Shown here piece after piece: positions 116 through 19,597 of a stretch of DNA of 25,075 nucleotides (position 1 is the first letter of the stretch; the number at the start of each line of letters is the position of its first letter). Source of the stretch: a virus; IMG/VR virus record IMGVR_UViG_3300008261_000370, positions 6,839 to 31,913 of that record. One strand, 5' to 3'. The notes below the pieces were generated by a model. The model was given only the letters and a program-made list of their open reading frames with translations. It was not told where the DNA came from and did no database searches. Made by a program: the position numbers and the translations under genes.

Positions 116-159
116 AATGGAAATTTTGGCTTTACCCCTTGCTGCCCATACGGTTGTGG

Positions 160-167
160 TATACTTG
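160..167 (+). promoter_or_regulatory. Possible promoter box just before the VWA-peptidase gene
   Basis: TATACTTG lies 4 bases before the ATG at 172. The gene follows a terminator, so a promoter is expected here. There is no convincing Shine-Dalgarno sequence. A very similar box (TATACTTC) precedes the HNH gene at 4693. It may be a variant of the late box or a plain sigma70-type -10; a TTGCTG at 139 is only 15 bases upstream, which is a poor -35 spacing. Confidence 0.45.
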
Positions 168-171
168 GGGC

Positions 172-2337
172 ATGAACAACACCGCAGCAAAGAACGTTCT
201 CGCCAAGATCCTCGCCACCGAAAACATCATGGTTCGCCATGATGCCAAGGCCAGCACTGCCTCATTCGACCTCCACAAGCGCGTTCTGACGCTCCCTGTG
301 TGGAAGAACATGACTAGCAGCCTCATGGACATGCTCATCGGACATGAGGTCGGCCATGCCCTCTACACCCCAGGAATGAACCCTCAGCAGTTCATGGACT
401 TCACCAAGGAGATTGGCAAGAACATGGACCTTGCCAAGCTTATTTGGAACATCGTTGAGGATGCTCGTATTGAGCGCATGATCAAGGAAGAATATCCGGG
501 TCTGCGTCGTGACTTCTTCCACGGCTACAAGGAAATTTATGAAATGGACATGTTTGAGATTGAAGGGAAGAACATCAACGATCTTCCCTTCATTGACCGC
601 ATGAACCTTCATTTCAAGATTGGTCCTGTTCTTCACAACGATGTGATCTTCACTCCCGAAGAAATGGTTTTCGTCAAGCGGTGTGAAGTGACTCGTACTC
701 ACGATGATATCAAGGTTCTGAGCAAGGACATTTACGATTTCATCAATGATCAGAATGCCAATGTCGAGAACCAGGAACAGCAGACTTCTGAAAAGTTTAG
801 TCTTTCGGAAGATGGTGAAGCTTCCTCGCTTGGTGACGAGAAGATGGAGTCTCTTTCTTTCAATCCCAACAGCGGCAACAATGATGGGGGTGAAGACGAG
901 GATCAGAACAATGCTGATTCTCAGAACAGCAGTGATGAGCGAAAGACCAATCGTACTCCGATCAATGACGGGGATACCATGAAGAACCTGGAGAAGAATC
1001 TTCAGAAGAACGTGGATACTCGTAGCGGTACTACTCATATCTGCACTCTTCCTGATATCGATCTTGATAACGCCATTGTGGATCACAAGGAGTTCTATAA
1101 GCGCGTTGATTCCAAGGCAATTGAACGGGCTTGTGGTAACAACTATGAGCATGCCAGTCGCGTGAACGAAGCCATGGATCGTCTTCTTGCCAAGGTCAAG
1201 GAGGATTCCATTCGTTCCGTCAACATCATGATCAACCAGTTCAATCGCAAGAAGGCTGCTGACGAGTCTCGCAAGTCTCGCATCAACAAGACTGGGAAGT
1301 TGAACATGGACAAGCTTCACCAGTACAAGATTTCGGAAGATATTTTCCTGTCCCGTACCATCACCAAGGATGGAAAGAATCACGGGTTCTTGATCTTCCT
1401 CGACTGGAGTGGATCGATGTCATACACGATCCACGATGTCATGATGCAGCTGTTTCAGATTGCAATCTTCTGCCGCAAGGTGAAGATTCCGTTTGAAGTG
1501 TATAGCTTCACCAACTCGTTCTTTGATGACAAGCACATTGCCAGTTTCACTCCTACCGATGAAGATTCTATCAATTTTGATAGCTTCTGCATGGTCAACC
1601 TTCTGTCTTCGCGCATGACCAACATTGAATTTGATCATGCCATGAAGATGATGAATTGGGCAGGCATTCGGTACAACCATGCCAAGATCAAGAAGCTGAA
1701 CATGGTTGGTCTTGTTCCTTCTGCTCCGGATGAATTCAGTATGTCATCCACTCCGCTGAATCAGGCCATGATTGTTGCTCTGAAGTTGATTCCTCTGTTC
1801 CGCAAGAAGTACAATCTTCAGATTGTCAACACGGTCTTCATGACCGATGGTGATGGCGATAGCTTCTACCACCGCAAGTCTATTGGCAACAATGAAAAGT
1901 ATTGCCTGTACGATTCGCAAACTGGCATGTCATATGAGTACAGCCATCGTAGTCATGACTTGACCCAGGCTCTGACCAAGATGATCAAGGATCGCACTGG
2001 TTGCAATCTGATTCACTTCCACCTTGATACTGTTCGCAAGGCAGAGAACGCAGGCTACCGCTACTTCACTGGTGAGGAGACTGAGGAGCAGAAGCAGAAG
2101 ATCAACAAGATGTACGATGACGAAGGGTTCTTCGTTGCAACCAAGAAGAGCAATTTTGATGAGGTCTTTGTCATCAAGTCAACCACCGAGATTGAGTTTG
2201 GGTTTGACGAGGATGAGTTCCTTGAGTCCAAGAAGAAGTCTTTCACTTCTCTCAAGTCTGCCTTCCTCAAGATGAATGATCGCAGGATCACTTCCCGCGT
2301 CATGCTCAATCGGTTCATCGATATGATCTCTGTCTAA
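172..2337 (+). CDS. CobT-like protein with metallopeptidase motif and VWA domain
   Basis: 721 residues from the ATG at 172; a TTG at 139 is in frame but would span the likely promoter. The N-terminal part has a zinc-peptidase motif HEVGH (residues 58-62), with an acidic helix about 35 residues later (IVEDAR) that could give the third ligand. An acidic Asn/Asp/Glu-rich linker (about 200-265) follows. The C-terminal VWA domain has a complete MIDAS: DWSGS (411-415), Thr527 in SSTPL and Asp559 in MTDGDGD. Families with this layout include CobT-type proteins, which act with a MoxR/CobS-type AAA+ ATPase, and phage versions are often labelled peptidase. Whether it acts on cobalt insertion, protein remodelling or proteolysis cannot be told. 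It lies between two terminators and appears to be a single transcription unit. Confidence 0.85.
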   Translation: MNNTAAKNVLAKILATENIMVRHDAKASTASFDLHKRVLTLPVWKNMTSSLMDMLIGHEVGHALYTPGMNPQQFMDFTKEIGKNMDLAKLIWNIVEDARIERMIKEEYPGLRRDFFHGYKEIYEMDMFEIEGKNINDLPFIDRMNLHFKIGPVLHNDVIFTPEEMVFVKRCEVTRTHDDIKVLSKDIYDFINDQNANVENQEQQTSEKFSLSEDGEASSLGDEKMESLSFNPNSGNNDGGEDEDQNNADSQNSSDERKTNRTPINDGDTMKNLEKNLQKNVDTRSGTTHICTLPDIDLDNAIVDHKEFYKRVDSKAIERACGNNYEHASRVNEAMDRLLAKVKEDSIRSVNIMINQFNRKKAADESRKSRINKTGKLNMDKLHQYKISEDIFLSRTITKDGKNHGFLIFLDWSGSMSYTIHDVMMQLFQIAIFCRKVKIPFEVYSFTNSFFDDKHIASFTPTDEDSINFDSFCMVNLLSSRMTNIEFDHAMKMMNWAGIRYNHAKIKKLNMVGLVPSAPDEFSMSSTPLNQAMIVALKLIPLFRKKYNLQIVNTVFMTDGDGDSFYHRKSIGNNEKYCLYDSQTGMSYEYSHRSHDLTQALTKMIKDRTGCNLIHFHLDTVRKAENAGYRYFTGEETEEQKQKINKMYDDEGFFVATKKSNFDEVFVIKSTTEIEFGFDEDEFLESKKKSFTSLKSAFLKMNDRRITSRVMLNRFIDMISV

Positions 2338-2341
2338 AAAA

Positions 2342-2368
2342 AAAACACTCCCTTTCGGGAGTGTTTTT
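2342..2368. terminator. Bidirectional terminator between convergent genes
   Basis: AAAACACTCCC (2342-2352) pairs with GGGAGTGTTTT (2357-2367) around TTTC. It has an A run on the left and a T run on the right, so it can terminate transcription from both strands. It lies between the + gene ending at 2337 and the - gene ending at 2388. Confidence 0.93.
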
Positions 2369-2387
2369 TCATTTCTATTTTCAGAAA

Positions 2388-2894
2388 TTACTTTTTTCTC
2401 TGAGTGGTCTGAGTTGCAGATCCTTGTGCTGACTGCATTCCACCAGCGAATGGAAGACCAAGGTATTGGGCTACCATTTGAGCTGCGTTTGGATTACCCT
2501 GAAGTCCTGCTAGGAATTGTCCGAAAGCAGCTCCGTCAAATCCGCCTTGAGCAGCTTGAGTTGGCTGGGCAGTTAGTGTTCTAGCGGCTGCTGGAACATT
2601 ACCACCGAAGCTACCAACTCCACCGGACATTAGACCACCACCAGTTGAGGTGCTGGTTGGTGACATACCGCCAGCAACCTTGCCCATTCCGCCAACGCCT
2701 AGTTGGGGTTGAGCAGCTAGCTGTGCTCCGAGTGCTGCACCGCCACCAGCTTGGAAAGCCTGGGTTGGGGACATTCCTGCGTAGTTAGCTTCGTTGATGA
2801 TGCTCTTTAGTTTTGCGTTTTCTTCCATGAGTGATGAAAGAGTTTTTTCCATTTTTTGTAGTTTGTAAGTTAATGCTGCATTGAGAGTTGACAT
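2388..2894 (-). CDS. Short coiled-coil, Gly/Ala-rich protein, probable virion component
   Basis: 168 residues. The ATG at 2894 was chosen because AAGGA lies at normal distance upstream and a TATACATA box precedes it; the longer reading to 3038 would run through both. Residues 1-36 form a heptad-like helix (LNAALTYKLQKMEKTL, then EENAKLKSII). The rest is low-complexity Gly/Ala/Gln/Thr, with a late segment GGFDGAAFGQFLAGLQGNP. Its opening MST, its helix and the GFDGAA segment match the neighbouring 277-residue protein, so the two look like paralogues. Late-type expression and the oligomerisation helix suggest a virion or fibre-associated role, but the family was not recognised. Confidence 0.8.
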   Translation of the reverse strand: MSTLNAALTYKLQKMEKTLSSLMEENAKLKSIINEANYAGMSPTQAFQAGGGAALGAQLAAQPQLGVGGMGKVAGGMSPTSTSTGGGLMSGGVGSFGGNVPAAARTLTAQPTQAAQGGFDGAAFGQFLAGLQGNPNAAQMVAQYLGLPFAGGMQSAQGSATQTTQRKK

Positions 2895-2910
2895 ATATGT
2901 TTCCTTTCGA

Positions 2911-3744
2911 TTATGTATATGAAACGTATCTTTGTCCTGATAGCGATGCAATGTCTTTTGTACTTGTTCCAGACTTTCTAAAAATAGATGGCTGCGTTGG
3001 GCTGGGGGGTGGAGGTGGGGGTGGTTCTTGTCCTCCACCTCCGCTACTGGATTGGCCCATTGCAGTTAATAATACTCCGAGTGCTGCTCCGTCAAATCCT
3101 GGTTGGCCATAATAGGAATTGAAAATTCCAAGGTCAGCACCGTCAACAACCCCGTCGCCATTATAGTCTGGTCCAGTTGGTAGTTGCGGAGATGGAGGTT
3201 GTCCCCCTCCATCAGGATTTGAACCCATAGCACTTAATAATGCACCCAAAGCAGCACCATCAAATCCTGGTTGCCCATAGTATGCATTAAAAATTCCAAG
3301 GTCAGCACCATCGACTACTCCATCACCGTTGTAGTCTGGCCCTGTTGGTAGTTGCGGAGATGGAGGTTGTCCTCCTCCTGTAGTGGGGGATGATCCTCCT
3401 CCAGTAGTAGAAGAACCTCCTCCTTGGTCTGGAGATGAAAGACCACCAGACCCCAATCCAGTAAAGGTTCCAGCATCGGGTCGTGTGCTTGTTGATCTAT
3501 ATGTGATTGGTCTTCTTCCGCCAACATTACCGCCAAATGCTGGAGGTCGCATCAATGGTTGTTCTGTTGCTATTGGACTTTTATATTCTTTTGCTGCTTT
3601 AACAGTCGAAACAGTTGGTGTTGTCGTTGCAGTTGAAACTGCTTCTACAAGCACTCTTAATTTTTTATTTTCGTTTTCGAATAACGAAATTTTATGTTCT
3701 ACAGTTTTGATTCTGTTTAGAATATTTACTTCGAAGGTGCTCAT
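2911..3744 (-). CDS. Coiled-coil protein with two dockerin-like calcium-binding repeats
   Basis: 277 residues. The N-terminal helix (about residues 8-36, IKTVEHKISLFENENKKLRV) looks like a coiled coil. A Pro/Ser/Thr/Gly-rich linker follows, then two 56-residue repeats. Each repeat has a loop DYNGDGVVDGAD with acidic or amide residues at positions 1, 3, 5, 9 and 12 (137-148 and 193-204), then LGIFNxYYG, and then a GFDGAALGxLL helix. The loop matches the dockerin type I calcium site. A Gly/Pro-rich segment and a short tail ending YVSYT close the protein. A late-type TATAAATA box lies 6 bases before the ATG. The likely role is an oligomeric, calcium-stabilised virion or host-contact protein; this is inference. 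It is a paralogue of the next gene downstream (2388-2894). Confidence 0.85.
   Translation of the reverse strand: MSTFEVNILNRIKTVEHKISLFENENKKLRVLVEAVSTATTTPTVSTVKAAKEYKSPIATEQPLMRPPAFGGNVGGRRPITYRSTSTRPDAGTFTGLGSGGLSSPDQGGGSSTTGGGSSPTTGGGQPPSPQLPTGPDYNGDGVVDGADLGIFNAYYGQPGFDGAALGALLSAMGSNPDGGGQPPSPQLPTGPDYNGDGVVDGADLGIFNSYYGQPGFDGAALGVLLTAMGQSSSGGGGQEPPPPPPPSPTQPSIFRKSGTSTKDIASLSGQRYVSYT
2912..2919 (-). promoter_or_regulatory. T4-type late promoter box for the 168-residue coiled-coil gene
   Basis: On the - strand, TATACATA is followed by ATCGA and then AAGGAAACATAT before the ATG at 2894. If initiation is about six bases after the box, as at T4 late promoters, the leader begins at the Shine-Dalgarno sequence. 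The box overlaps the TAA stop and last codons of the upstream gene ending at 2911. Confidence 0.75.
3056..3391 (-). repeat. Two direct 168-bp repeats encoding dockerin-like units
   Basis: The segments at about 3056-3223 and 3224-3391 align with a 168-base period, for example the shared landmarks CCCAT at 3056 and 3224, and GATGGAGGTTGT at 3191 and 3359. They keep the 56-residue protein unit while many third codon positions differ. This points to an older in-frame duplication under protein-level selection, not a recent slippage. Confidence 0.9.
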
Positions 3745-3750
3745 TCAGAT

Positions 3751-3758
3751 TATTTATA
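3751..3758 (-). promoter_or_regulatory. Consensus T4-type late promoter TATAAATA, leader nearly absent
   Basis: The - strand reads TATAAATA, ATCTGA, then the ATG at 3744. With T4 late geometry the transcript would start one or two bases before, or at, the start codon. No Shine-Dalgarno sequence is visible. The box abuts a + strand box for the divergent gene at 3773. Confidence 0.8.
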
Positions 3759-3760
3759 AT

Positions 3761-3768
3761 CATACATA
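3761..3768 (+). promoter_or_regulatory. Probable late promoter box before the 3773 gene
   Basis: CATACATA is followed by ATAC and the ATG at 3773, closely matching TATACATA, ACTAC, ATG at 7980-7995. A TATAAT at 3755-3760 on the same strand could instead serve as a sigma70-type -10. There is no Shine-Dalgarno sequence. Confidence 0.5.
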
Positions 3769-3772
3769 ATAC

Positions 3773-4492
3773 ATGTTTGACTTTTCGATTGGCAGAAACA
3801 AAAGTTTAGAAAACGCAGCTTCAAAAGTTTTAAATGAAGCACTATCTTTGAATAGAATGCCAGCAGCCAGAAGCCCAATTACACAAAGAAGCGTATTTGC
3901 TCCCCAAGGATCTACCGAAGATGCTTTGATGAATTGGAGGCCGGGTCAAAGACCTCTTGGGGGTATGGAAGTTCCCGGTGGTCCCATAGGAGGAGATCAA
4001 GACGCATTTGAAAGAAGCTTGCAAAGAATGGGATACTCTTCTTCCATCGATCCAGAAACAGGAAAAACAGTTTATAGTGGTGGAAGCAAACCATCCCTAA
4101 CTCTAGGAACACGCGGAAACCAGTTACAACAATCACAATATGTTCCACAGTCAAGACAATCGACACAAACAACACAAGCAAGGCAATACGGAGAAGTAAG
4201 AACTACTCCGGGATATATGGGCCAACATCCAGTAACTACTAGAACAGTAGAACAAGAAAAAATGGACAAAGAAATAGTGGATAGATCTGCTGAGGAAGTA
4301 TTTAAGAGAGAATACGGAACTTCTGCACCTAGAGGACCAGGTGGAGAAATAATGAATCCAAATACTAACAGAGTGGGTGGGTCTGGAGCACTTGCAAGAT
4401 CTAGACAAGTAGATCCAGAAAGACAAAGAATAGCAGCAGAAAGAAGACAAAAAGATCTAGAAAGAGCTAGAGCAATGGGAATGACTCCCTAA
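3773..4492 (+). CDS. Unrecognised polar, Gln/Arg/Gly-rich protein
   Basis: 239 residues starting at the first ATG, MFDFSIGRNKSLENAASKVL. After a short N-terminal amphipathic stretch the composition suggests disorder: Gly/Pro (about 60-75), a Gln/Ser/Thr-rich stretch (about 118-140), and a basic, charged C-terminal helix (DPERQRIAAERRQKDLERARAM). No signal peptide, membrane segment or catalytic motif is seen and the family was not recognised. It is divergent from the dockerin-like gene, with 28 bases between the start codons, and its TAA (4490-4492) directly abuts the stop of the - strand gene at 4493. Its place among late-type genes suggests a structural or scaffold-like role, which is inference only. 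Confidence 0.75.
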   Translation: MFDFSIGRNKSLENAASKVLNEALSLNRMPAARSPITQRSVFAPQGSTEDALMNWRPGQRPLGGMEVPGGPIGGDQDAFERSLQRMGYSSSIDPETGKTVYSGGSKPSLTLGTRGNQLQQSQYVPQSRQSTQTTQARQYGEVRTTPGYMGQHPVTTRTVEQEKMDKEIVDRSAEEVFKREYGTSAPRGPGGEIMNPNTNRVGGSGALARSRQVDPERQRIAAERRQKDLERARAMGMTP

Positions 4493-4657
4493 TCACTTTC
4501 CTCTTTTAGCTTTAGAGATTTCAATAGCGGCCAGTTGTTTGGCCGCTTTTTCTTTGGTTGGATGTGTTCCTAAAACCTTCTCACCAGAAGAATCCAGTAC
4601 TTTGTACTTATTTCCTACCTTACGAATCATCTCTATCAAATCTTGAAAGTTTTTCAT
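4493..4657 (-). CDS. 54-residue basic protein of a small phage family
   Basis: The - strand ORF runs from an ATG at 4657 to a TGA at 4493-4495. It begins MKNFQDLIEMIRKVGNKYKV, followed by a segment reading VLGTHPTKEKAAKQLAAIEI and a basic end, KAKRGK. The pattern of a predicted beta hairpin followed by KEKAxKQLAAIEI resembles small conserved hypothetical proteins seen in several tailed phages; this is from memory of the pattern, not a search. No function is known. It is the only - strand gene between 3745 and 15607. A CATAAATA box lies exactly 5 bases before the start codon and there is no Shine-Dalgarno sequence. Confidence 0.8.
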   Translation of the reverse strand: MKNFQDLIEMIRKVGNKYKVLDSSGEKVLGTHPTKEKAAKQLAAIEISKAKRGK

Positions 4658-4662
4658 GGAAA

Positions 4663-4670
4663 TATTTATG
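4663..4670 (-). promoter_or_regulatory. Late promoter box for the 54-residue gene
   Basis: The - strand reads CATAAATA, TTTCC, ATG(4657). It has one mismatch to TATAAATA, and the 5-base spacing puts the expected first transcribed base on the A of the start codon. Confidence 0.6.
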
Positions 4671-4678
4671 CGCCGATG

Positions 4679-4684
4679 TATACT
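4679..4684 (+). promoter_or_regulatory. Possible promoter box before the HNH gene
   Basis: TATACT, extended to TATACTTC, ends 6-8 bases before the ATG at 4693. It resembles the box before the gene at 172. The intergenic space to the divergent gene at 4657 is only 35 bases, so promoters for both must lie within it. Confidence 0.4.
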
Positions 4685-4692
4685 TCTGGTGC

Positions 4693-5217
4693 ATGAAACC
4701 TAAATATAAGCAGATGAGTAAAAGAGTACTACTCTTAAATGCATCAGAAGAAGTAGTGAACATTATTGAATGGAATCGTGCTGTCAAATTGCTCTATAGT
4801 GGCAAAGCACTAGAGCATGATGCTGACGAGTACTACGAAATCAAACTACCCAATAAAACTATTCGTCTTCCGAAGATCATCATTCTTCGAAATTACATTC
4901 GTATTCCTTACAGACGAATTACTCCCACTCGCAAGAATATTTTCTTGCGGGATCAATATGGCTGTCAATACTGTGAAGAAAAACTCACAGAAGATACAGC
5001 AACTATTGATCATGTCACTCCCCGTAGCAAGGGTGGTGGCTCCACATGGGAAAACATGGTTACTTGTTGCCGCAAGTGTAATCTAAAAAAGGCAAACAAA
5101 TATCCAAAGGATGTCGGACTCAAGCTACATAAGAAGCCAAGACCACCTCTTGTCAATATTCTCGGATTGAGAGAGTTGATTGAATTGAACAAGTGTTGGT
5201 CAAAATTTGTAGGATAA
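4693..5217 (+). CDS. HNH endonuclease family protein
   Basis: 174 residues from the ATG at 4693; the ATG at 4714 (MSKRVLLLNASEEVV) is an alternative. The protein opens like a broad HNH family (VLLLNAS, then a WNRAVKLLYSGKA-type segment). It then has FLRDQYGCQYC, the core TIDHVTPRSKGGG plus TWENMVTCCRKCN, and a basic tail. The CQYC and CRKC pairs fit a zinc-bound beta-beta-alpha metal fold, and His of DHV is the expected general base. Members of this family occur in bacteria and many phages and are not necessarily homing enzymes; in phages HNH proteins can act in DNA packaging or as nicking enzymes. The next gene starts 3 bases after its TAA. Confidence 0.85.
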   Translation: MKPKYKQMSKRVLLLNASEEVVNIIEWNRAVKLLYSGKALEHDADEYYEIKLPNKTIRLPKIIILRNYIRIPYRRITPTRKNIFLRDQYGCQYCEEKLTEDTATIDHVTPRSKGGGSTWENMVTCCRKCNLKKANKYPKDVGLKLHKKPRPPLVNILGLRELIELNKCWSKFVG

Positions 5218-5220
5218 ATT

Positions 5221-5520
5221 ATGCCAACATACAATTATGAATGTACAAAATGTCAGCACCTGTTTGAACAGGTAGAAACTATAGCCAATCGAAATGCTCC
5301 ATGCGAAAAGCCTTGCCCCAAATGTAAGGAAATGGGCGTGGAGAAGAGCTGGGTTGGTCAAACCCCAGGATTAGGTTCTGATACTACCCTTACACCAGAT
5401 AAGAAGACTGGTGGCCAATGGGGACAATTAATGTCCAAGATGAAGCGTGGTATGCCCAAGAGATTCCACAAAAATATGGATAGAGCCTCAAATAATACTG
5501 GGTCGAAGTGGCAGAGATGA
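5221..5520 (+). CDS. FmdB-like zinc-ribbon protein
   Basis: 99 residues starting MPTYNYECTKCQHLFEQ, with an AGGA Shine-Dalgarno sequence 6 bases before the ATG. CTKC at residues 8-11 and CPKC at about 32-35 form a zinc ribbon of the FmdB type. The C-terminal part is basic (LMSKMKRGMPKRFHKNMDRA), suggesting nucleic acid or protein contact. Phage genomes often carry such a zinc ribbon of unknown role. It is probably co-transcribed with the HNH gene upstream, and its TGA overlaps the next ATG in an ATGA. Confidence 0.8.
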   Translation: MPTYNYECTKCQHLFEQVETIANRNAPCEKPCPKCKEMGVEKSWVGQTPGLGSDTTLTPDKKTGGQWGQLMSKMKRGMPKRFHKNMDRASNNTGSKWQR

Positions 5521-6749
5521 TAAATAAGAGTATGAAGAAATACCAAGATATTCTATCTGAAACCAGCCAAGCTGCATTAGACTCACTAACTCACAGACAG
5601 CAAATAAGCAAAATCGCAGACATTTTAGAAGCATCTGAAAAGTATCTTGGTAGACCATTGTCTGAAAGTGAGATCTATTCTTTCACAGAAATTTTGATGG
5701 AAGAAGAAGCCCCTGTTTCAAGAAAAGATGAAAAGCAGAAGGGCGAAGGACAAACATTCAAAAAGGGTAGCTACAAGATTGAAATCATTACCCCTCAAGG
5801 AAAGGTTGTTCGCACTGCTTCTTCACAGAAGGGTTTGCTTGATGTGATTCATAGCGCAAAGAACTTTAGAGTTCTTGACAGCAATAACAGAGACATCACA
5901 AGCAAGGTCAAAACCTTTGTCAAGGAAAGAGAAAAGCAAGCACAGCTTCGTAAGAATTTAAAAAAAAAAGGTAAAGTAAACGAAGAGTTTCTTGCTGAAA
6001 GAATTGGCGGAAAACAATTAGCTCAACTTTTTTTAGCCGCTAAATTAGCTTTTTCTCCCGGTGCTGTTATGCCAGCAGCAAAAGCAGTTGCACCAGTTGT
6101 CACTCAAGGGGTTGTTCAAGTAGAGAAAGCAGCTGTTCAGGCTGGCACACAAGCTGCTAAAACAACAACGCAAGCTGCTACTCAAACGGCTAAAACAGCA
6201 ACGCAAACAGCAGCACCACAAGCGGCTAAAGCAACTACACAAACAGCAGCACCACAAGCAGCCAAGGCTGCTCCCAAAACAGCTCCCAAAACAGCTGCAC
6301 CACAGACCGCTAAAGCTGTAGAAACACAAGCTACCAAGGGAACTGCACAAGCTGCAACACAGGCTGCTGCACAAGCAGCAAAGGCCACTAGCCAAGAAGC
6401 AGCAAAACAAACTTCTCAACAAGCAGCCAAACAAGCTGCTAGTCAGCAAGCTGCATCTAAGGCTGTATCGCAGGCTGCTGCCCCGGTAAAGGCTGTATCA
6501 CAGGCTCCAGCTAAGGCAACGCAAGCAGCTGCTGCCACAGGAGCAGCCGGAACAGCTGCTGCAACCGGAGCTGCAACGGCAGCTGCCGCTCCAGCCGCAT
6601 TAAGAAATGCATTATTTGGTGGTGGAGGAGGTAGTGGCGGTGGTGTAGAACCTGGATATGGTGTTGGCAATCCTTCAGCAAATCTGTATAATGACACTCT
6701 AGAAACACAAGCACGAAGTGGTGTTGGTGGGACAATTTATTACGCATGA
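5517..6749 (+). CDS. Ala/Gln/Thr-rich repetitive protein, probable virion component
   Basis: 410 residues from the ATG at 5517, which overlaps the previous stop as ATGA. A second in-frame ATG at 5532 lies exactly 5 bases after GATAAATA and may be used for late transcripts. The N-terminal third is a normal globular-looking sequence (YQDILSETSQAALDSLTHRQ, then a KGSYKIEIITPQGKVVRTA strand pair). From about residue 205 it becomes low complexity, with repeated TQAAK, TQTAAPQAAK and AAKQ motifs, then an Ala-rich helix and a Gly-rich tail (GGGGGSGGG). The repeat section resembles a long Lys/Ala helix, not an enzyme. Function is unknown; an internal-head, scaffold or DNA-contacting virion role is a guess. 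The stop overlaps the next ATG. Confidence 0.8.
   Translation: MINKSMKKYQDILSETSQAALDSLTHRQQISKIADILEASEKYLGRPLSESEIYSFTEILMEEEAPVSRKDEKQKGEGQTFKKGSYKIEIITPQGKVVRTASSQKGLLDVIHSAKNFRVLDSNNRDITSKVKTFVKEREKQAQLRKNLKKKGKVNEEFLAERIGGKQLAQLFLAAKLAFSPGAVMPAAKAVAPVVTQGVVQVEKAAVQAGTQAAKTTTQAATQTAKTATQTAAPQAAKATTQTAAPQAAKAAPKTAPKTAAPQTAKAVETQATKGTAQAATQAAAQAAKATSQEAAKQTSQQAAKQAASQQAASKAVSQAAAPVKAVSQAPAKATQAAAATGAAGTAAATGAATAAAAPAALRNALFGGGGGSGGGVEPGYGVGNPSANLYNDTLETQARSGVGGTIYYA
5519..5526 (+). promoter_or_regulatory. Possible late promoter box with leaderless spacing
   Basis: GATAAATA, AGAGT, ATG(5532). It has one mismatch to TATAAATA and the same 5-base spacing as at 4657, 7392 and 7993. It overlaps the end of the zinc-ribbon gene. 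There is no Shine-Dalgarno sequence for either 5517 or 5532. Confidence 0.45.
6130..6600 (+). repeat. Low-complexity Ala/Gln/Thr/Lys codon repeats
   Basis: Degenerate repeats of GCA/CAA/ACA/AAA codons. The clearest case is an identical 20-mer at 6204 and 6240 (period 36 bases, 12 codons, encoding TAAPQAAKATTQ-type units). Flanking units are more diverged. This is slippage-type expansion inside a coding region, so it may vary in length between isolates. Confidence 0.8.
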
Positions 6750-7414
6750 TTCAAAAAACTTTCATTCATGAATTTGTAAATGTGGGAAAAGAAGTAGAGT
6801 CTTCTGAACAAGAAGGTAGAAGATTTTACATTACCGAATCTGGCCAGTTTCCAAGCGTAACCACAGTTGTTGGCTTTGAAAAGCAAGAGTTTTTCAAGAT
6901 CTGGCGAAAACAAAATCCGGAAGAAGCCAAGCGAGTTACATCTAGAGGAAACAGGCTTCACTCTATTATTGAATCATATCTAAAAAATGAAAGCATAAAG
7001 GATCTAGATCTGATGCCAAATGATCTGGATCTATTTGTACAAATCAAAAAGGAACTAGACAACATTGATAGAATTAAAGCTCTTGAGTTACCTCTTTATG
7101 GGGGCGTTGTTGGGTTGGCTGGCCGCGTGGACTGCATCGCGGATTACAAAGGCAAACTCAGTATCATCGACTTCAAAGGCAGTACCAGAGCGAAAAGAAA
7201 AGAAGATATCGAAAACTACATGATGCAGGCTACTGCATATTCTCTTCTCTGGAAAGAGATGACCGGAGAGAGCATAGATAACTTTGTCATTTTAATTACA
7301 TGTGAAGATGGTACAGTACAGATTTTCGAAGATAGTCCGATGAATTATGTTTCGAAATTGTATAATATCATCCAAAGATATAAAGAATACAATGAACGAA
7401 AAAGAACAAGTTAA
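6746..7414 (+). CDS. PD-(D/E)XK exonuclease, RecB/Cas4/MGME1-like
   Basis: 222 residues. The ATG overlaps the upstream TGA (ATGA at 6746-6749), which suggests translational coupling. The motifs occur in the order typical of this superfamily: a TSRGNRLHSIIESYL helix (about 71-85), VVGLAGRVDCIAD with the metal-binding Asp (about 126-138), SIIDFKGS giving the D-x-K pair (about 144-151), and QATAYSLLW (about 166-174). It probably degrades DNA ends, and related phage proteins are annotated simply as exonuclease. Substrate polarity is not predictable. The next gene starts inside its 3' end, 23 bases before the stop. Confidence 0.85.
   Translation: MIQKTFIHEFVNVGKEVESSEQEGRRFYITESGQFPSVTTVVGFEKQEFFKIWRKQNPEEAKRVTSRGNRLHSIIESYLKNESIKDLDLMPNDLDLFVQIKKELDNIDRIKALELPLYGGVVGLAGRVDCIADYKGKLSIIDFKGSTRAKRKEDIENYMMQATAYSLLWKEMTGESIDNFVILITCEDGTVQIFEDSPMNYVSKLYNIIQRYKEYNERKRTS
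7379..7386 (+). promoter_or_regulatory. Possible late promoter box inside the exonuclease gene
   Basis: TATAAAGA, ATACA, ATG(7392). It has one mismatch to TATAAATA, the spacing is exactly 5 bases, and no Shine-Dalgarno sequence is visible. It lies in the last codons of the upstream exonuclease gene. Confidence 0.5.
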
Positions 7415-7814
7415 TCGTAGAAACACAAGAGTTTGGGTTAGAATGAATGAGGATGCAAAGTCTCCTTACTTCAGAAACCAGTTCATCCAAAAGTACGGTG
7501 GCAAATTCATAAAAGAAGGTCGCTACTGGAAGTGGATGGAGCTTGATTTTGAGAAACTTCTGATCGAAGAATTTGAAAAGAAAAGTCAGGAGTTTGAAAA
7601 GAAGGTACAGGATTTCAAAGCTCCTGAACCTGTGATACGAGTAGAAAGAGGCAAGAGCTATGTTTTCCAGAACAAGGAAGGAAATGAAGTTCACATAAAG
7701 AATCTTCTAGAATATTGCATGGAAAACAAGCTTGTTCGCGGAGCCATGTACGACCTAATGACAGGAAAACGAAAGACCTACAAAGGTTATAAGTTTTTAA
7801 GAAAGGAGGAATGA
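7392..7814 (+). CDS. Protein with a C-terminal NUMOD-like DNA-binding module, no nuclease domain seen
   Basis: 140 residues from the ATG at 7392; the longer reading from 7347 lies within the upstream gene. The N-terminal half is charged with a Lys/Glu-rich helix (FEKLLIEEFEKKSQEFEKK, about 52-70). The C-terminal 50 residues (YVFQNKEGNEVHIKNLLEYC, then a GAMYDLMTGKRKTYKGYKF segment) follow the NUMOD/IENR-type pattern of a short beta hairpin, a helix-turn-helix and a KGY(K)F end. Such modules usually bind DNA for homing endonucleases, but no GIY-YIG or HNH motif is present here. It could be a remnant or a stand-alone DNA-binding protein. The stop overlaps a strong Shine-Dalgarno region for the next small gene. 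Confidence 0.75.
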   Translation: MNEKEQVNRRNTRVWVRMNEDAKSPYFRNQFIQKYGGKFIKEGRYWKWMELDFEKLLIEEFEKKSQEFEKKVQDFKAPEPVIRVERGKSYVFQNKEGNEVHIKNLLEYCMENKLVRGAMYDLMTGKRKTYKGYKFLRKEE

Positions 7815-7815
7815 T

Positions 7816-7944
7816 ATGGAACTAGTAATTAGCGAATCTCTAGGCACTATTTTCTATAGCGTGGTTGTTTTCGTAACAGGTGCGCTGATAGGTCAGGGCC
7901 TTTGGACTTGGGTATCCAAGTTCTTCCCTTGGAACCGGAAGTGA
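7816..7944 (+). CDS. 42-residue single-pass membrane protein
   Basis: The ORF MELVISESLGTIFYSVVVF and onward ends FPWNRK and has a strong AAGGAGG Shine-Dalgarno sequence at 7803-7809. It has one hydrophobic segment (about residues 11-27) and a Trp-rich, basic C-terminal end, so the C-terminus is probably cytoplasmic by the positive-inside rule. It starts 1 base after the upstream stop and is followed directly by a terminator. The function is unknown. A small holin-accessory or membrane-associated role is possible but unsupported. Confidence 0.75.
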   Translation: MELVISESLGTIFYSVVVFVTGALIGQGLWTWVSKFFPWNRK

Positions 7945-7949
7945 ACTGG

Positions 7950-7975
7950 GGCGGGTCGAAAGACCCGCCTTTTTT
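7950..7975 (+). terminator. Rho-independent terminator ending the 4693-7944 gene run
   Basis: GGCGGGTC (7950-7957) pairs perfectly with GACCCGCC (7962-7969) around a GAAA loop, then six T residues. It lies between the small membrane gene and the next promoter at 7980. Confidence 0.95.
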
Positions 7976-7979
7976 CATG

Positions 7980-7987
7980 TATACATA
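7980..7987 (+). promoter_or_regulatory. Late promoter box TATACATA with leaderless spacing
   Basis: TATACATA, ACTAC, ATG(7993), directly downstream of a terminator, so a promoter is needed here. The same box is used at 2912 and 19590. No Shine-Dalgarno sequence lies between the terminator and the ATG, and the predicted +1 falls on the A of the start codon. Confidence 0.75.
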
Positions 7988-7992
7988 ACTAC

Positions 7993-9192
7993 ATGCCAAA
8001 TTCCTGGTTCGATCCCGAATTTTTGAAGCGTTATAATGATGAAATTTTGCCATTTGTCCAAGATAAACTGGATGAAGGGACAAACCTCCGTGATACGGTG
8101 ATGGGACAGAAGTTCCAAAGAAGACAATTGGCATCACAAAGAAGAAATGACAAAAGACAAGGTACATTTCTTTCTGCCATGCTAAAAAGAAAACACGAAG
8201 AAGAAACCGCCGAAGGTGCTAGAAAAGATGCAATGCTTGGCACTGGCGATTATTTCGAAAAGAAGGCTTCTACTGAAATTGACGGAGAAAGATTCAGGGT
8301 CAATCTTCGCAGAAAGAGAAAAGAAGCTGAAGGAAAACGAAATAAAGCAGAACAGATTGCTGCACATGCAGAACAGAGAGGTCAGGCAAGAGCAATGGAT
8401 AAAATGCAGGGACAACCAATTCACAAGCCTTATTATGAAGCTGTAGAGCATATTTTTGAAAACAAAGAATCTGGCAAGACTAGAAGAACAAATGACATGT
8501 TCCGTGGCCTTTCTGATTTCAGAAAAGATTTACGGTTATCCACAAAAATTTCATTGACTGGTGATCCAAAAGAAAAAGACAAGCTAAGAAAAAGAGAAGA
8601 AAGAAAATTGAATGAGTATTTCTCAATTCAATCTCAGAGACTAATTAATGAACAAGAAGAAGAAACCCCAGAAGCAGATCAGCAGCCCGAAGAAGGACAA
8701 GAACAAGGCCAAGAGGGAACTCCAGGAGAAGTTCCTGTACCTATGGATCCTGCAATCGTATTCGAACAACTCAAACAAATTCGATCTAAGGTAAAGAATG
8801 TGTTTGAAAATCTCAGCAATATTTCTTACAAGATTATGACTGAGAAGCTTGGAGTAAAATCAGAAAACAAGGATGACAGAGATTTCCAAAACGAAAATGC
8901 AATCATAACGATTTCAAGAGTTTGCTCAGGTGCATCTACAGAAGAATTGCAGTATATGGGGCAATTCCAGAATGGAAGATTGTTTGACTTCAATGAAGAA
9001 GCTTTTGACACAGCAAGAAAACTATTACTTGAGCTTGGCGAATCGTGCTTCCAAAACTTAATGCACATTGACGAACTCGGAATAATGCCAGACGCTCCTG
9101 GTTTTGAACGAAGCCAACTAATCTGTAATAAACAGCATGGTTCCCATGGCTATTCCAGCAGATCCAAATATCAAACAGTACGATCAAATTGA
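7993..9192 (+). CDS. Unrecognised 399-residue charged protein, probable virion or assembly protein
   Basis: Starts MPNSWFDPEFLKRYNDEILP. The first 215 residues are strongly charged and helical, rich in Lys/Arg/Glu (for example KRKHEEETAEGARKDAML and LRRKRKEAEGKRNKAEQ). A Gln/Glu/Pro-rich linker (about 220-250) leads to a more globular C-terminal third (FEQLKQIRSKVKNVFENLS and onward). No enzyme motif, signal peptide or membrane segment is seen. The last 56 bases overlap the next gene in another frame. Its position at the head of a late-type operon and its composition would fit a scaffold, internal or connector protein; this is inference. Confidence 0.75.
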   Translation: MPNSWFDPEFLKRYNDEILPFVQDKLDEGTNLRDTVMGQKFQRRQLASQRRNDKRQGTFLSAMLKRKHEEETAEGARKDAMLGTGDYFEKKASTEIDGERFRVNLRRKRKEAEGKRNKAEQIAAHAEQRGQARAMDKMQGQPIHKPYYEAVEHIFENKESGKTRRTNDMFRGLSDFRKDLRLSTKISLTGDPKEKDKLRKREERKLNEYFSIQSQRLINEQEEETPEADQQPEEGQEQGQEGTPGEVPVPMDPAIVFEQLKQIRSKVKNVFENLSNISYKIMTEKLGVKSENKDDRDFQNENAIITISRVCSGASTEELQYMGQFQNGRLFDFNEEAFDTARKLLLELGESCFQNLMHIDELGIMPDAPGFERSQLICNKQHGSHGYSSRSKYQTVRSN

Positions 9193-12970: not shown

Positions 12971-12978
12971 TATAAATA
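12971..12978 (+). promoter_or_regulatory. Consensus late promoter TATAAATA for the holin/spanin-like genes
   Basis: TATAAATA, ACTCT, then GGAGGTTATT and the ATG at 12994. With T4 late geometry transcription would begin at about the first G of the GGAGG Shine-Dalgarno sequence, giving a 10-base leader. This is the clearest late promoter in the window. Confidence 0.88.
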
Positions 12979-12993
12979 ACTCTGGAGGTTATT

Positions 12994-13428
12994 ATGCCGA
13001 CTGAGTTGATTTCATTGATAGGCGGAAGCCTTACTGGATTTATCTTCAAGTTCATGGCCCAGAAGAGCCAGGACCAGAAGGAAATTTTTGAGCGTCTAAT
13101 TGCTGCTAACAAGCAGACCACGGAGAACCAAGACAAGGCAGCTCAAAGAGTCCCCCTAGATGTCGGCAAGGGAGTGCGACAGCTAATCGTTCTAACTGTT
13201 CTATTTGGAACCATCGCTGCACCCTTCATTCTTCCTTTCTTCGGAGTTCCTACCTTCGTTGAAGTAGATAGCAGCAACCCAGAAGCTCTCTTTGGTTTGA
13301 TTCCAGAGACTACCAAGAAGTATTTCGTTGAGATCAACGGATATCTTTACACTTCTGAGAATAGACAAATTCTAGTTGCAATCGTCGGATTCTACTTCGG
13401 TACAGCCGCAGCAGGGAGGAAGTCATGA
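12994..13428 (+). CDS. Candidate holin with three membrane segments
   Basis: 144 residues with a strong GGAGG Shine-Dalgarno sequence and a consensus late promoter. Three hydrophobic segments are visible: about residues 4-21 (ELISLIGGSLTGFIFKFM), 63-83 (QLIVLTVLFGTIAAPFILPF) and 126-140 (ILVAIVGFYFGTAAA). A charged linker lies between the first two (KSQDQKEIFERLIAANKQ). This matches the layout of three-TM holins of the gene-transfer-agent type. The next gene looks like a spanin and overlaps it by ATGA, which supports a lysis role. No endolysin is present in the window, so the assignment rests on topology and context. A non-lytic membrane protein is the alternative. Confidence 0.65.
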   Translation: MPTELISLIGGSLTGFIFKFMAQKSQDQKEIFERLIAANKQTTENQDKAAQRVPLDVGKGVRQLIVLTVLFGTIAAPFILPFFGVPTFVEVDSSNPEALFGLIPETTKKYFVEINGYLYTSENRQILVAIVGFYFGTAAAGRKS

Positions 13429-13667: not shown

Positions 13668-15622
13668 TGGCAAAAAAAGTAAAAGTAAATAAAAGTCCAG
13701 TAAGAATTCCTTCTTCTGCCTTTAATCCTATACAATTTGGTTCGATTCCAACATCATCTTTCCCAGAAGTAGTATTTCCCGACGCAAGAACAGTTACTCC
13801 AGCTGGTTCTGGTGGGCTTCGCGCACCAGGATTTCAGACATTTGCTCCCCGTGGAGCAGCACTAGGAGCAGGGATACCGTTTGGAACACCAAGCAGTCCA
13901 AGTATTCCCAACCTATCCCCACAAATTGACTATACTTATAATCCACAGAGATTCGGTATTGGTCAAATAAAACCAAAAGTAACTAGTGGTTCTTTTGCTC
14001 CTGCTGGACAAGCACCAAAAACTGGGCCAGTAACAGTAGCACAGCAGATGGAAGGGTTAAAGCAACAAGCAGCAGCTGCCGCACAAGAAGGAAAAGCTGC
14101 TCCTAAGCGTCTTGCTACTGCTGGTCAATTTGGTACTGGAGTAGCTTCATTTGTTGGAGGAGGTCTTGCTGGTTTGGGTTATGAAGCTCTCGTTCCACAA
14201 GAATATAGAGATTGGGCAAGTAGAACCGGATTCCAATTCGGAGACACAACAGACGTAAATCTAGATAATGTTGGTCAAATGGCCGCATTTGAAGCTGGTG
14301 CTGCTATACCTAGTGTAGCCATCAATAGAATGACTGGTGGTGCTTTAGGAACACCAGCAGGCGTAGCTGCAAGAGGTTTCTTACCAAACGTACTCGGTGG
14401 TCTTGTTGGGAGTCAGCAAGGAGCCAAGACAGCAGAAAGAGCAGCTAAAGCAGTTGGTTTAGGTGACACAGGCCAAGCAGTAGCCGGAATAGCTGGAAGT
14501 ATACCAGGTTTTATCGGCGGTAGAAATGTTGCAACTAATCTCATGTCTAAAGCAGGAAGACAGTCCATGCTACAAGGTGGAGTAAAAGGATTTGGTACAA
14601 AACTAGGTGCAGCAGGAGCAATCGCAGATACAGCATTCACTGCTGTCGATCAATTTGATACAAAATATAAGGGCTTAGGTGGAGAACTAGGAGACATTCT
14701 TGATCCAGGAGATTTGTTAGCATTAGCTGGTGGTCCTGTTGGTGCTGCTTCTTTGGTAGCAACCAAGGGACTTAAAGTAGGTGGTGCTATTTCAAGAGGA
14801 ATCATGGATGCAGAACAACAAGAAAGAAATAAAACTGTATCCGATTTGACTAATGCAACTCTTGTTCTAAACAACACAGATTGGTCAAAACAGCCTGCTG
14901 GAGCAAAAGAACAGTGGCAAAAATATGCTGCTGATTTGCAGAAAAAGCGAGACACACAATCTACCTTCCTTTTAGGAGATGAAAAGAAACAAGTTGAATT
15001 GGCCAGCCAAGAAGGAATGAAGGATTTTAATTTCAGATATAATCCCGAAACCAAAGGTCTACAGTTCCAGAGTGATGTTGCAGATGAAATGAAGAGAAGA
15101 GCACAAGATACTGCAAGAGCCAGTGGTGCTACTCCAGCTCAGTTTACTGATATAGCACAAAGACAGCAAGTTGCTGCTTTGAAGAAGCAAGCAGAAGAAG
15201 CACCAAAGACTGCGGCAGGAAGAGCCAAGATTAAGGAAGTTGAATCTAAGGAACAGGCTGCTCAGAGATTTGCTGCACAAGATGCTGTAAGACAAGCAAT
15301 TGAAGCTGGATACGAACCAGATCCAGAACTTCTCAAGCAAGCTGAAGGACCTGTCGAAAAGGATCCAAATCAGAAACAAAACGCGCAAGTAGTAATTGAT
15401 GCTGAAGTAGAGAAAGTACGCAGTCAAGAAAACCAGCAAGTACAACAAGTCAAACAAAAGGAAGAAGAAAAGGAAGAAGAAAGAAAAGCTAAGAATGCTC
15501 AGGCAGAAAAGAAACTAGCCGACACTAGAGATAGAGCAAGTCTTCCAGATAAATGGGATCCAGCTCAGAAGAAATTCGTATCCCCATTTGATGCAAAATA
15601 TGATCAATTACCGGGAAGATAA
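13667..15622 (+). CDS. Large Ala/Gly-rich protein with hydrophobic core and charged coiled-coil end
   Basis: 651 residues. The ATG overlaps the upstream TAA (TAATG), with GGGAGAG as Shine-Dalgarno. Residues 1-150 are Pro/Gly/Ser-rich. Residues about 150-385 contain repeated Gly/Ala-rich hydrophobic stretches of the glycine-zipper kind (FGTGVASFVGGGLAGLGYEA, AVAGIAGSIPGFIGG, LLALAGGPVGAASLVA). The remainder is polar and helical, ending with a Lys/Glu/Gln coiled coil (VKQKEEEKEEERKAKNAQAEK). No catalytic motif is seen. This layout resembles phage internal or ejected virion proteins that insert in membranes, but no homologue was recognised. It directly follows the lysis-type pair and ends in a 15-base convergent overlap with the RuvC gene. 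Confidence 0.75.
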   Translation: MAKKVKVNKSPVRIPSSAFNPIQFGSIPTSSFPEVVFPDARTVTPAGSGGLRAPGFQTFAPRGAALGAGIPFGTPSSPSIPNLSPQIDYTYNPQRFGIGQIKPKVTSGSFAPAGQAPKTGPVTVAQQMEGLKQQAAAAAQEGKAAPKRLATAGQFGTGVASFVGGGLAGLGYEALVPQEYRDWASRTGFQFGDTTDVNLDNVGQMAAFEAGAAIPSVAINRMTGGALGTPAGVAARGFLPNVLGGLVGSQQGAKTAERAAKAVGLGDTGQAVAGIAGSIPGFIGGRNVATNLMSKAGRQSMLQGGVKGFGTKLGAAGAIADTAFTAVDQFDTKYKGLGGELGDILDPGDLLALAGGPVGAASLVATKGLKVGGAISRGIMDAEQQERNKTVSDLTNATLVLNNTDWSKQPAGAKEQWQKYAADLQKKRDTQSTFLLGDEKKQVELASQEGMKDFNFRYNPETKGLQFQSDVADEMKRRAQDTARASGATPAQFTDIAQRQQVAALKKQAEEAPKTAAGRAKIKEVESKEQAAQRFAAQDAVRQAIEAGYEPDPELLKQAEGPVEKDPNQKQNAQVVIDAEVEKVRSQENQQVQQVKQKEEEKEEERKAKNAQAEKKLADTRDRASLPDKWDPAQKKFVSPFDAKYDQLPGR

Positions 15623-16171
15623 CTGATTGTCATAAACAGCTTTGCAGATGTAAAAGGAGTCAACGATATCCGTAATAGGATTCTTGACTTCTTTTCCTAT
15701 CTGGTCAAAGTGAATTCTCAAATCAGTACCAGTCTCTTTGACAAATGCCTCAAACATTTCTTGCTTGTTGGCATTTCCCTTTCCGCTTGCAAGTTTCTTG
15801 ACTCTGGTTGGCTGAATGACATCAAGGGGTATAGATTGCTGCCACAGCTTGTACTTTAAAATGCCAGTATTCTCTGCTATATGAAAGATTCGTCCCTTGG
15901 CAGCATAGGCATAGTCCTCAAGGGCAACCTGTTCACTTCCGATGAGGAGTTCTACCGCCCAGTCTGAGATGCTGTCGTATCTACCACATTCTGCTGTATA
16001 GTCTGGAAATAGTTCTCCACGAATATTATTATTAAACATCGTGGCGTTCTTCTTGGTATCGGTCAGGAAATAGAACATGCAGTTCTTATAAGAAAACTCC
16101 CCGTGCATTCTGCCATTGAAGATACAGATGCAAGGGGAAGTTAACGAGTAGTCAATACCAGCGATTATCAC
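15608..16171 (-). CDS. RuvC-like Holliday junction resolvase
   Basis: 187 residues from a GTG at 16171; the nearest ATG upstream hits a stop after one codon. The RNase H-like catalytic set is visible: Asp7 in AGIDYSL, Glu85 in VALEDYAY, and Asp168 with Asp171 in ITDIVDSFYI. Between them IPLDVIQPTRVKKLASGKGN, then ANKQEMF, matches the RuvC-type loop and helix. Its likely job is resolving branched DNA from UvsX-dependent recombination before packaging. It is the last gene of the - strand block and follows the previous stop by 7 bases. No Shine-Dalgarno sequence is evident, and a weak CCTAAATA box lies 4 bases before the GTG. Confidence 0.85.
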   Translation of the reverse strand: MIIAGIDYSLTSPCICIFNGRMHGEFSYKNCMFYFLTDTKKNATMFNNNIRGELFPDYTAECGRYDSISDWAVELLIGSEQVALEDYAYAAKGRIFHIAENTGILKYKLWQQSIPLDVIQPTRVKKLASGKGNANKQEMFEAFVKETGTDLRIHFDQIGKEVKNPITDIVDSFYICKAVYDNQLSSR

Positions 16172-16178
16172 ATACTAT

Positions 16179-17003
16179 TTAGGCTATATTGCTATTATGT
16201 AAAGTTTCGGCATTTTTCTTTGCTCTTGATATAATTTCGCCTGTCCTACCAGGAATTCTTCTACGAATTAATATTCTAAGAGCTGCTGCTGAGGGTCCAC
16301 CAGAAGCTTTTGGTTCAGATGGCTCTAAATCATGAATTTTAAATATTTTATCAAAACTTTCTTGATCATGATAAGAATGAGTTTCTTCTAAACCAGATGC
16401 TCTTAATGCAGCATCAATCATAGAATTATGATCCTCTGCTTCTTTAAATAACTTATCATTATCTTTTTGTGACATTGATTCGTTATGAGTATGTTTTCTT
16501 CTTCTTGTTATAACAGAATAACCTCTAGATTGCGAACCATGAATGAGAATTTCATTTTTACCAATATGATCAAATAAAAGAGATTGCAGCGGTTGAGAAG
16601 GTGTTTTTGCTAATGTTTCTTTTTCTTTTTCTGGTAAATCAGCCGATCTTATCCTCATTCTTGAAGAACCAGAGGGAGAAACATCTGTTGTCATGGCATT
16701 TACTATTATTCCTAAAGGTGATGCCTTCGCAATATTTACTCTGGTATAATCCCCTCCTTTAGTTTCTCTTCCTTTTTTCGCTTCTATGTTTAGAGATACC
16801 AAACGATCTTGATGCGAAAAATCAACAGTAACATCAGCTCCTTGTCCTGGAGCATTAACTCTAGATTTTACTCCTTCTAACGGAGAATCTGAAAAATGTT
16901 GCCGGATCATATCTTGTAGAGATAGTCCGGAAGCGGCTATTGCTGATCCCCTACTTGTAGAGTTTTCTAATAACTTTTTAACCAGTTTAAGCCTATGGTC
17001 CAT
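16179..17003 (-). CDS. Unrecognised protein with a possible PD-(D/E)XK nuclease core
   Basis: 274 residues starting MDHRLKLVKKLLENSTSRGS, 3 bases after the nrdJ stop. Residues about 52-77 read GQGADVTVDFSHQDRLVS, then LNIEAKKGRE. An Asp followed by a strand ending in E-x-K is the core of PD-(D/E)XK enzymes, so a nuclease is possible but not proven. Later parts include a basic RRRKHTHNE stretch and a C-terminal RILIRRRIPGRTGEIISRA. Codon use is visibly richer in A/T at third positions than in nrdJ, which suggests later acquisition. Its place in a replication block favours a DNA-related role. Confidence 0.75.
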   Translation of the reverse strand: MDHRLKLVKKLLENSTSRGSAIAASGLSLQDMIRQHFSDSPLEGVKSRVNAPGQGADVTVDFSHQDRLVSLNIEAKKGRETKGGDYTRVNIAKASPLGIIVNAMTTDVSPSGSSRMRIRSADLPEKEKETLAKTPSQPLQSLLFDHIGKNEILIHGSQSRGYSVITRRRKHTHNESMSQKDNDKLFKEAEDHNSMIDAALRASGLEETHSYHDQESFDKIFKIHDLEPSEPKASGGPSAAALRILIRRRIPGRTGEIISRAKKNAETLHNSNIA

Positions 17004-17006
17004 ACC

Positions 17007-19589: not shown

Positions 19590-19597
19590 TATGTATA
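19590..19597 (-). promoter_or_regulatory. Late-type promoter box for the homing endonuclease
   Basis: The - strand reads TATACATA, AATTA, then TAAAAGGATGTTATAT before the ATG at 19568, so a short leader carries the Shine-Dalgarno sequence. It lies just after the thyX stop, inside an otherwise early/middle-type gene block. Confidence 0.65.

Follow-up and report, generated by a model that had tools for sequence, protein, structure and literature searches.

Here, we propose that several genes in a 25,075-base stretch of viral DNA (the window; part of the 31,913-base contig IMGVR_UViG_3300008261_000370; 42.7% G+C) very probably have leaderless late promoters of the gp55 type known from phage T4, shifted so that they abut the start codon. 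In the textbook case, the late transcription of T4, promoter and ribosome-binding site are separate. In the window, promoter and start appear to be fused into a 16-base unit made of the box, 5 bases, and the AUG. In this proposal, the gp55 sigma factor and the gp45 sliding clamp would act at a box abutting the start codon; initiation would fall on the A of the AUG where box and start codon are 5 bases apart (spacing 5), or no more than 1-2 bases away at spacings of 4, 6, or 7; and translation of the leaderless late mRNA would begin at the 5'-terminal AUG, with no Shine-Dalgarno (SD) sequence. Other late genes would use the identical box 14-21 bases upstream, with the SD sequence at or just after the predicted transcription start (+1). 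An initial annotation of the window had placed late boxes next to several start codons, with +1 at the AUG. The core of that reading is supported by the spacing-5 peak, the conservation of the box and its exact distance, the abutting terminators, and the gp55 and gp45 genes of a sibling contig, all of which are present in the sequences themselves; some of the sites that it listed turned out to be wrong.

Late boxes at a fixed distance from start codons

We scored 25 curated start codons of the window for TATAAATA with at most 1 mismatch, using 2000 dinucleotide shuffles as the control. The box stands at spacing 5 ahead of 4 of the 25 starts (shuffle mean 0.09), a number reached by 0 of the 2000 shuffles, and at spacings 4-6 ahead of 5 (0.27 expected; again 0 of 2000). 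The window sites have the 8-bp box near TATAAATA that marks a T4-type late promoter, with a variable first position and an occasional C at position 5 (TATACATA).

These sites are conserved in the close relatives of the window contig drawn from IMG/VR (L003/L010, L005, L006, L007, and L008/L009). The box and 6-nucleotide spacing ahead of the gene starting at 3744 are the same in L003/L010 (TATAAATACTCTGA-ATG). For the 54-residue protein starting at 4657, NATAAATATTTCC-ATG is retained in L003, L005, L006, and L008, with protein identities of 96% (L003), 94% (L008), and 67-69% (L005 and L006). ATAAATA lies shortly ahead of the start corresponding to 5532 in L003, L005, L006, and L008, at spacing 5 in most, and the counterpart of 7993 is TATAAATA-5-ATG in L003 and L008, with differing spacer letters. 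The start at 16171, of a RuvC-like resolvase gene, had been rated as weak and is a better case than was thought: the box is kept near and far, as NATAAATA-4-GTG in L010, L008, and L009 and as NATAAATA-5-ATG in the distant orthologues L019, L022, and L024. The resolvase has its conserved IIAGID motif from residue 2.

The exact distance is clearest in a pooled set of about 80 related loci, from which we took every NATAAATA with an ATG opening an open reading frame (ORF) 0-39 bases downstream, deduplicated at 75% identity. Spacing 5 accounts for 59 sites, and spacings 4, 6, 7, and 8 for 3, 13, 10, and 11; a second hump, with SD sequences, lies at spacings 14-19 (9-18 sites per spacing). With the letters of the motif permuted (eight control motifs of similar composition), spacing 5 does not stand out and has at most 9 sites. 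The initial annotation had suggested looking for a peak at 5 bases as a check on its claim, which the lack of any peak would have refuted, and the peak lies exactly there. An SD sequence precedes 4 of the 59 spacing-5 starts, against 83 of the 98 starts at spacings 13-20. The base at -1 is a pyrimidine in 54 of the 59, as against about one third at the equal distance from the box in genes with a leader (led genes); a pyrimidine followed by A looks like a transcription start. In a random IMG/VR sample, among the matches listed, an ORF of 50 codons or more begins at the ATG of TATAAATA-5-ATGAAA in 87 of 117 cases, compared with 40 of 118 and 56 of 118 for the controls at spacings 6 and 8.

Terminators and the predicted transcription start

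In T4, the late box starts at -13, is 8 bp long, and spans -13 to -6 (PMC2988020), so that +1 is the sixth base downstream; when five bases separate box and start codon, the A of the AUG takes that position. In 15 of 18 of T4's own led promoters, a purine occupies it.

Of 69 spacing-5 sites, 11 have an intrinsic terminator in the 80 bases upstream, with a stem that ends 5-8 bases ahead of the box in 10 of them; by comparison, 0.55% of random 82-base stretches carry any terminator. At those 10 of the 69 boxes, the -35 position falls inside the terminator. A terminator abutting the box leaves no room for another promoter and should stop read-through from upstream. Among the evidence that sequence can give, the abutting terminators speak most strongly for transcription starting at the box. 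The window has this layout ahead of 7993, and it recurs in L003, L005, and L008.

Late-transcription genes in the relatives

The window contig groups within the T4 superfamily, near the cyanophages and the OM43 phage Melnitz. The window encodes UvsX, a DnaB-like helicase of the gp41 type, a primase, and the RuvC-like resolvase, along with a B12-dependent ribonucleotide reductase (NrdJ) and a peptidase of a family that cyanophages also have. A gp55 gene is present in the sibling contig G001 (50 kb, the largest among the close relatives; expect value (E) 6e-63) and was also matched in 8 of 13 other records, and a gp45 gene is present in G001 (E 1e-75) and in 5 of 7 other records. The G001 gp55 is nearest to cyanophage gp55, with up to 66% identity across 63% of the protein. 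The gp33 coactivator is annotated in Syn9, HTVC008M, Mosig, and Melnitz. As a separate observation, the gp55 matches of G007 (L091) and G004 (L092) each have one in-frame TGA within the matched stretch.

Distribution among phages and comparison with known systems

Late promoters of the predicted leaderless type, with the box at spacing 5, are widespread among the environmental phages of this branch of the T4 superfamily, both uncultured and SAR11-infecting. Observed and expected numbers of spacing-5 sites are 11 and 0.18 in G014, 9 and 0.20 in HTVC008M, 7 and 0.24 in Mosig, 6 and 0.30 in G010, 5 and 0.26 in G004, 4 and 0.09 in G001, 4 and 0.18 in G007, 3 and 0.23 in Melnitz, and 2 and 0.26 in G003. 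All 9 sites of HTVC008M and all 7 of Mosig are annotated gene starts that were chosen by independent annotators (16 of 16). The HTVC008M starts lie at 6280, 7562, 19456, 31132, 49760, 75559, and 142360 and, on the minus strand, at 16007 and 18916; terminators abut the box at 6280 and 75559, among others. The genes are late virion genes such as those of the tape measure, the tail tube, the baseplate wedge, the tail-tube-associated baseplate protein, and, in both phages, the DNA end protector; at the Melnitz site at 62263, the protein has an N-terminal sequence similar to the DNA end protector.

The promoters that we propose share with T4 late promoters (gp55/gp33/gp45; PMC2988020) the 8-bp TATAAATA box, gp55 and gp45 homologues (in a sibling contig), and a led class with SD sequences. 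They differ in that the main mode here is exactly 5, whereas in the 100 kb of T4 that we used, 0 of 45 boxes are at spacing 5 and none is less than 12 bases ahead of an ORF-opening ATG. Cyanophage late promoters have the same box, and the sibling gp55 is nearest to theirs, but spacing 5 is rare: in the parts of genomes covered, it is found for 0 of 16 boxes in Syn9, 0 of 16 in P-SSM2, 1 of 25 in S-PM2, and 1 of 14 in P-SSM4 (2 of 71 together), and likewise, from partial genomes, for 0 of 3 in KVP40 and 0 of 11 in phiM12. HTVC008M, Mosig, and Melnitz pooled have 19 of 143 boxes at spacing 5 (P = 0.014 against the cyanophages). The contrast in spacing 5 is clear with T4 and moderate with the cyanophages. 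The pelagimyophages HTVC008M and Mosig and the methylophage Melnitz share the spacing-5 class with the environmental contigs and differ from them in being cultured and complete.

Lambda cI is a single repressor gene with a host-type promoter, in contrast to the window and its relatives, where a whole late-gene class would be driven by a phage sigma factor. What the two would have in common, as with other classical leaderless phage mRNAs (PMC9031893), is the 5'-terminal AUG and no SD sequence. In the openly licensed literature, no paper was found with both TATAAATA and leaderless, nor did one turn up that describes late genes as leaderless in T4-like phages, cyanophages, or Pelagibacter phages; since openly licensed papers were the literature covered, the novelty is provisional. 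A pelagimyophage survey describes late-promoter prediction as unsuccessful in those genomes (PMC7029224), and the box-at-5 arrangement could explain why the usual method failed to detect them. For Melnitz, a sequence search yielded 15 late promoters, and the published passages covered here say nothing of how far they lie from start codons (PMC9004378).

Among the phages with this apparent fused unit are some whose hosts rank with the most abundant bacteria of the ocean. Box-5-AUG may serve as an annotation rule for late-gene start codons, and leaderless translation during infection becomes testable in cultured pairs, with HTVC008M or Mosig on Pelagibacter HTCC1062.

Points against the proposal and alternative explanations

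Several points weigh against our proposal. A gp55 gene was looked for in the window's own 32-kb contig fragment and not found, so the sigma factor is deduced from the siblings. The spacing-5 excess is weak in G003 (2 sites) and Melnitz (3), the latter having been expected to resemble HTVC008M. Because the box itself takes up the SD position, the lack of SD sequences at spacing 5 is in part unavoidable, and we count it as weak evidence. Start-codon use does not discriminate, since the led late genes are also nearly all ATG (98 ATG, 3 GTG, and 4 TTG, compared with 59, 2, and 0 at spacing 5); the preference for ATG gave P = 6e-5 against all other spacings, but it carries no weight once true led starts are the comparison, and we dropped it as evidence. 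Finally, we infer the transcription start from the T4 numbering, and leaderless translation and late timing are of the same kind.

What else might produce a box at such a distance? The boxes could be real late promoters whose genes begin further downstream, with ordinary leaders and an unused AUG at +1. The start codons were indeed picked from sequence; yet the RuvC-like genes open with MIIAGID or MIYAGID, in which residues 2-7 form the active-site motif, the FmdB-like genes open with MPTYNYEC across distant relatives, so that the conserved protein begins at the AUG, and independent annotation agrees on all of the HTVC008M and Mosig starts. We consider this explanation improbable. We give equally little credence to ATAAATA being a translation-initiation signal, an A/U-rich contact for the ribosome or S1, with transcription beginning well upstream. 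Although the motif is A/U-rich and sits in the SD position, the same octamer is found 14-21 nucleotides upstream of other genes with the SD sequence in between, which fits a promoter rather than a translation signal; in T4, this box is known to act as a promoter and stands at spacing 12 or more; and at ten sites a terminator lies 5-8 nucleotides ahead of the box.

Less probable still, to the point of being scarcely credible, are two further explanations. Chance matches in A+T-rich DNA, or the overlap of stop and start codons (there is a TAA inside the box), could account for individual weak sites such as 7392, 17003, and 3773, but not readily for a count that no window shuffle reaches, for a peak that none of the eight permuted motifs has, or for the lack of spacing-5 sites in T4 despite its similar base composition. 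The leaderless ends might instead arise at the box by processing of longer transcripts rather than by initiation. Processing can produce 5' ends at a fixed position, and T4 encodes the RegB endoribonuclease; against this, longer transcripts of that kind would end at the terminators just ahead of the box, and the box is the late promoter consensus.

A probable second leaderless class of the sigma-70 type

In the pooled relatives, 86 starts have TATA(A/C/T)T 6 bases ahead of the ATG after deduplication, whereas most other spacings have about 20. Of the 86, 78% also have a -35 element, scored as agreement with TTGACA at 4 or more of its 6 positions and mostly 16 bases upstream, compared with 31% of controls; those sites without a -35 may be chance. 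The genes include that of the gp41 helicase (METVILKNLV). This second class resembles host sigma-70 promoters whose +1 coincides with the AUG. The start at 172 belongs to it: the extended -10 element (TGGTATACT) lies 6 nucleotides from the ATG and is kept in L003, where the counterpart reads TTGATA-15-TATACT-6-ATG. At 4693, TATACT lies 8 nucleotides from the ATG, and we place this start in the same class. Neither has ATAAATA, and neither is a late box, contrary to the initial annotation.

It is conceivable, at rather less than even odds, that the branch runs a genome-wide leaderless programme with two promoter types, one for host sigma-70 (-10 element at 6 bases; replication genes such as that of the gp41 helicase) and one for gp55 (box at 5; virion genes). 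We further suggest, as tentatively, that the translation of many genes in such a programme would rely on recognition of the 5'-AUG, perhaps helped by a phage-encoded ribosomal protein S21. HTVC008M (L140-L142), Mosig (L504-L506), and Melnitz (L135-L137) each encode this protein, which may be connected with a changed mode of translation initiation.

Features of the window

All of the boxes named in the initial annotation exist in the sequence (Table 1). Four of the five that it called clearest (3744, 4657, 5532, and 7993) hold and are conserved in relatives. The fifth, ahead of 7392, is present but coding and not conserved: it forms the Tyr-Lys-Glu codons of an overlapping gene (6746-7414), and L008/L009 have TATAGGATGAACA-ATG instead. 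Box-like sequences exist at 17003 and 3773 as well, where a promoter is uncertain; the one overlaps the NrdJ stop codon and the other the divergent 3744 promoter.

Table 1. Predicted promoter elements and associated genes of the window, in order of position.
Feature	Position	Strand	Remarks
Sigma-70-type promoter, TTGCTG-15-TATACT	139..165	+	extended -10 TGGTATACT; 6 nt (nucleotides) upstream of ATG 172
Gene, leaderless-type late promoter	2911..3744	-	two dockerin-like EF-hand repeats in protein
Led late box TATACATA	2912..2919	-	17 nt upstream of ATG 2894; SD AAGGAAA at predicted +1
Late box TATAAATA	3751..3758	-	6 nt upstream of ATG 3744; divergent start 3773 on other side
CATACATA, uncertain	3761..3768	+	4 nt upstream of ATG 3773
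Small gene, leaderless-type late promoter	4493..4657	-	54 residues (MKNFQDLIEM...)
Possible sigma-70-type promoter, TGGAAA-16-TATACT	4657..4684	+	8 nt upstream of ATG 4693; overlaps divergent late box
Late box CATAAATA	4663..4670	-	5 nt upstream of ATG 4657
Late box GATAAATA	5519..5526	+	5 nt upstream of ATG 5532
Gene, leaderless-type late promoter	5532..6749	+	N-terminus MKKYQDILSE, like T4 internal-protein N-termini
TATAAAGA, rejected as promoter	7379..7386	+	spacing 5 ahead of 7392
Intrinsic terminator	7948..7976	+	10-bp stem (7948-7971) and T-run; ends just ahead of 7993 box
Late box TATACATA	7980..7987	+	5 nt upstream of ATG 7993
Gene, leaderless-type late promoter	7993..9192	+	no PHROG or Pfam match
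Led late promoter, TATAAATA, ACTCT, GGAGG	12971..12988	+	GGAGG at predicted +1; ATG 12994
RuvC-like Holliday junction resolvase gene, leaderless-type start	15608..16171	-	phrog_159, E 1e-28
Weak late box CCTAAATA	16176..16183	-	4 nt upstream of GTG 16171
ACTAAATA, uncertain	17008..17015	-	4 nt upstream of ATG 17003; overlaps NrdJ stop codon
Led late box TATACATA	19590..19597	-	21 nt upstream of ATG 19568; SD AAAGGA

The led sites at 2894, 12994, and 19568 are as first described. At 12994, the box, spacing, and SD sequence are retained in L007, L008, L009, and L010 and slightly altered in L005 and L006; the predicted +1 is the first G of GGAGG, and the late mRNA would open with the SD sequence (GGAGGUUAUUAUG). 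In the pooled led promoters, a purine-rich SD sequence starts at about position 6 after the box, the predicted +1, so that led late mRNAs would also have near-minimal leaders. The mixture of leaderless and led late genes had been thought unusual for this group; it is common in related environmental contigs and in cultured SAR11 and OM43 myophages, though not in T4.

The divergent pairs 4657/4693 and 3744/3773 have 35 and 28 bases between their start codons, so both promoters of each pair must overlap there. The stop region of NrdJ at 17003-17015 (ACTAAATAA) also reads like a late box. The RuvC-like gene of L006 and L007 comes straight after NrdJ and uses this NrdJ-stop box, while in the window another gene intervenes.

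Some spacing-5 proteins begin with MKKYQDILSE, MKSFKQHL, or MKTFKQYINE (window 5532-5561 and 4657-4628, and many relatives), which resemble the T4 internal head proteins IPIII (MKTYQEFIAEA) and IPI (MKTFKEF), a likeness that suggests capsid-targeting sequences. A motif of this kind is found in 8 of 59 spacing-5 proteins and 2 of 98 led proteins of the pooled set; it is not enriched in IMG/VR, among the matches listed (8 of 80, against 5 of 38 and 4 of 54), and we claim no link with leaderlessness. The protein encoded at 2911-3744 (minus strand) carries a pair of dockerin-like EF-hand repeats that are nearly identical to each other (YNGDGVVDGADLGIFN.YYGQPGFDGAALG; Pfam PF00404, E 3e-5) and sit in a proline/glycine-rich context.

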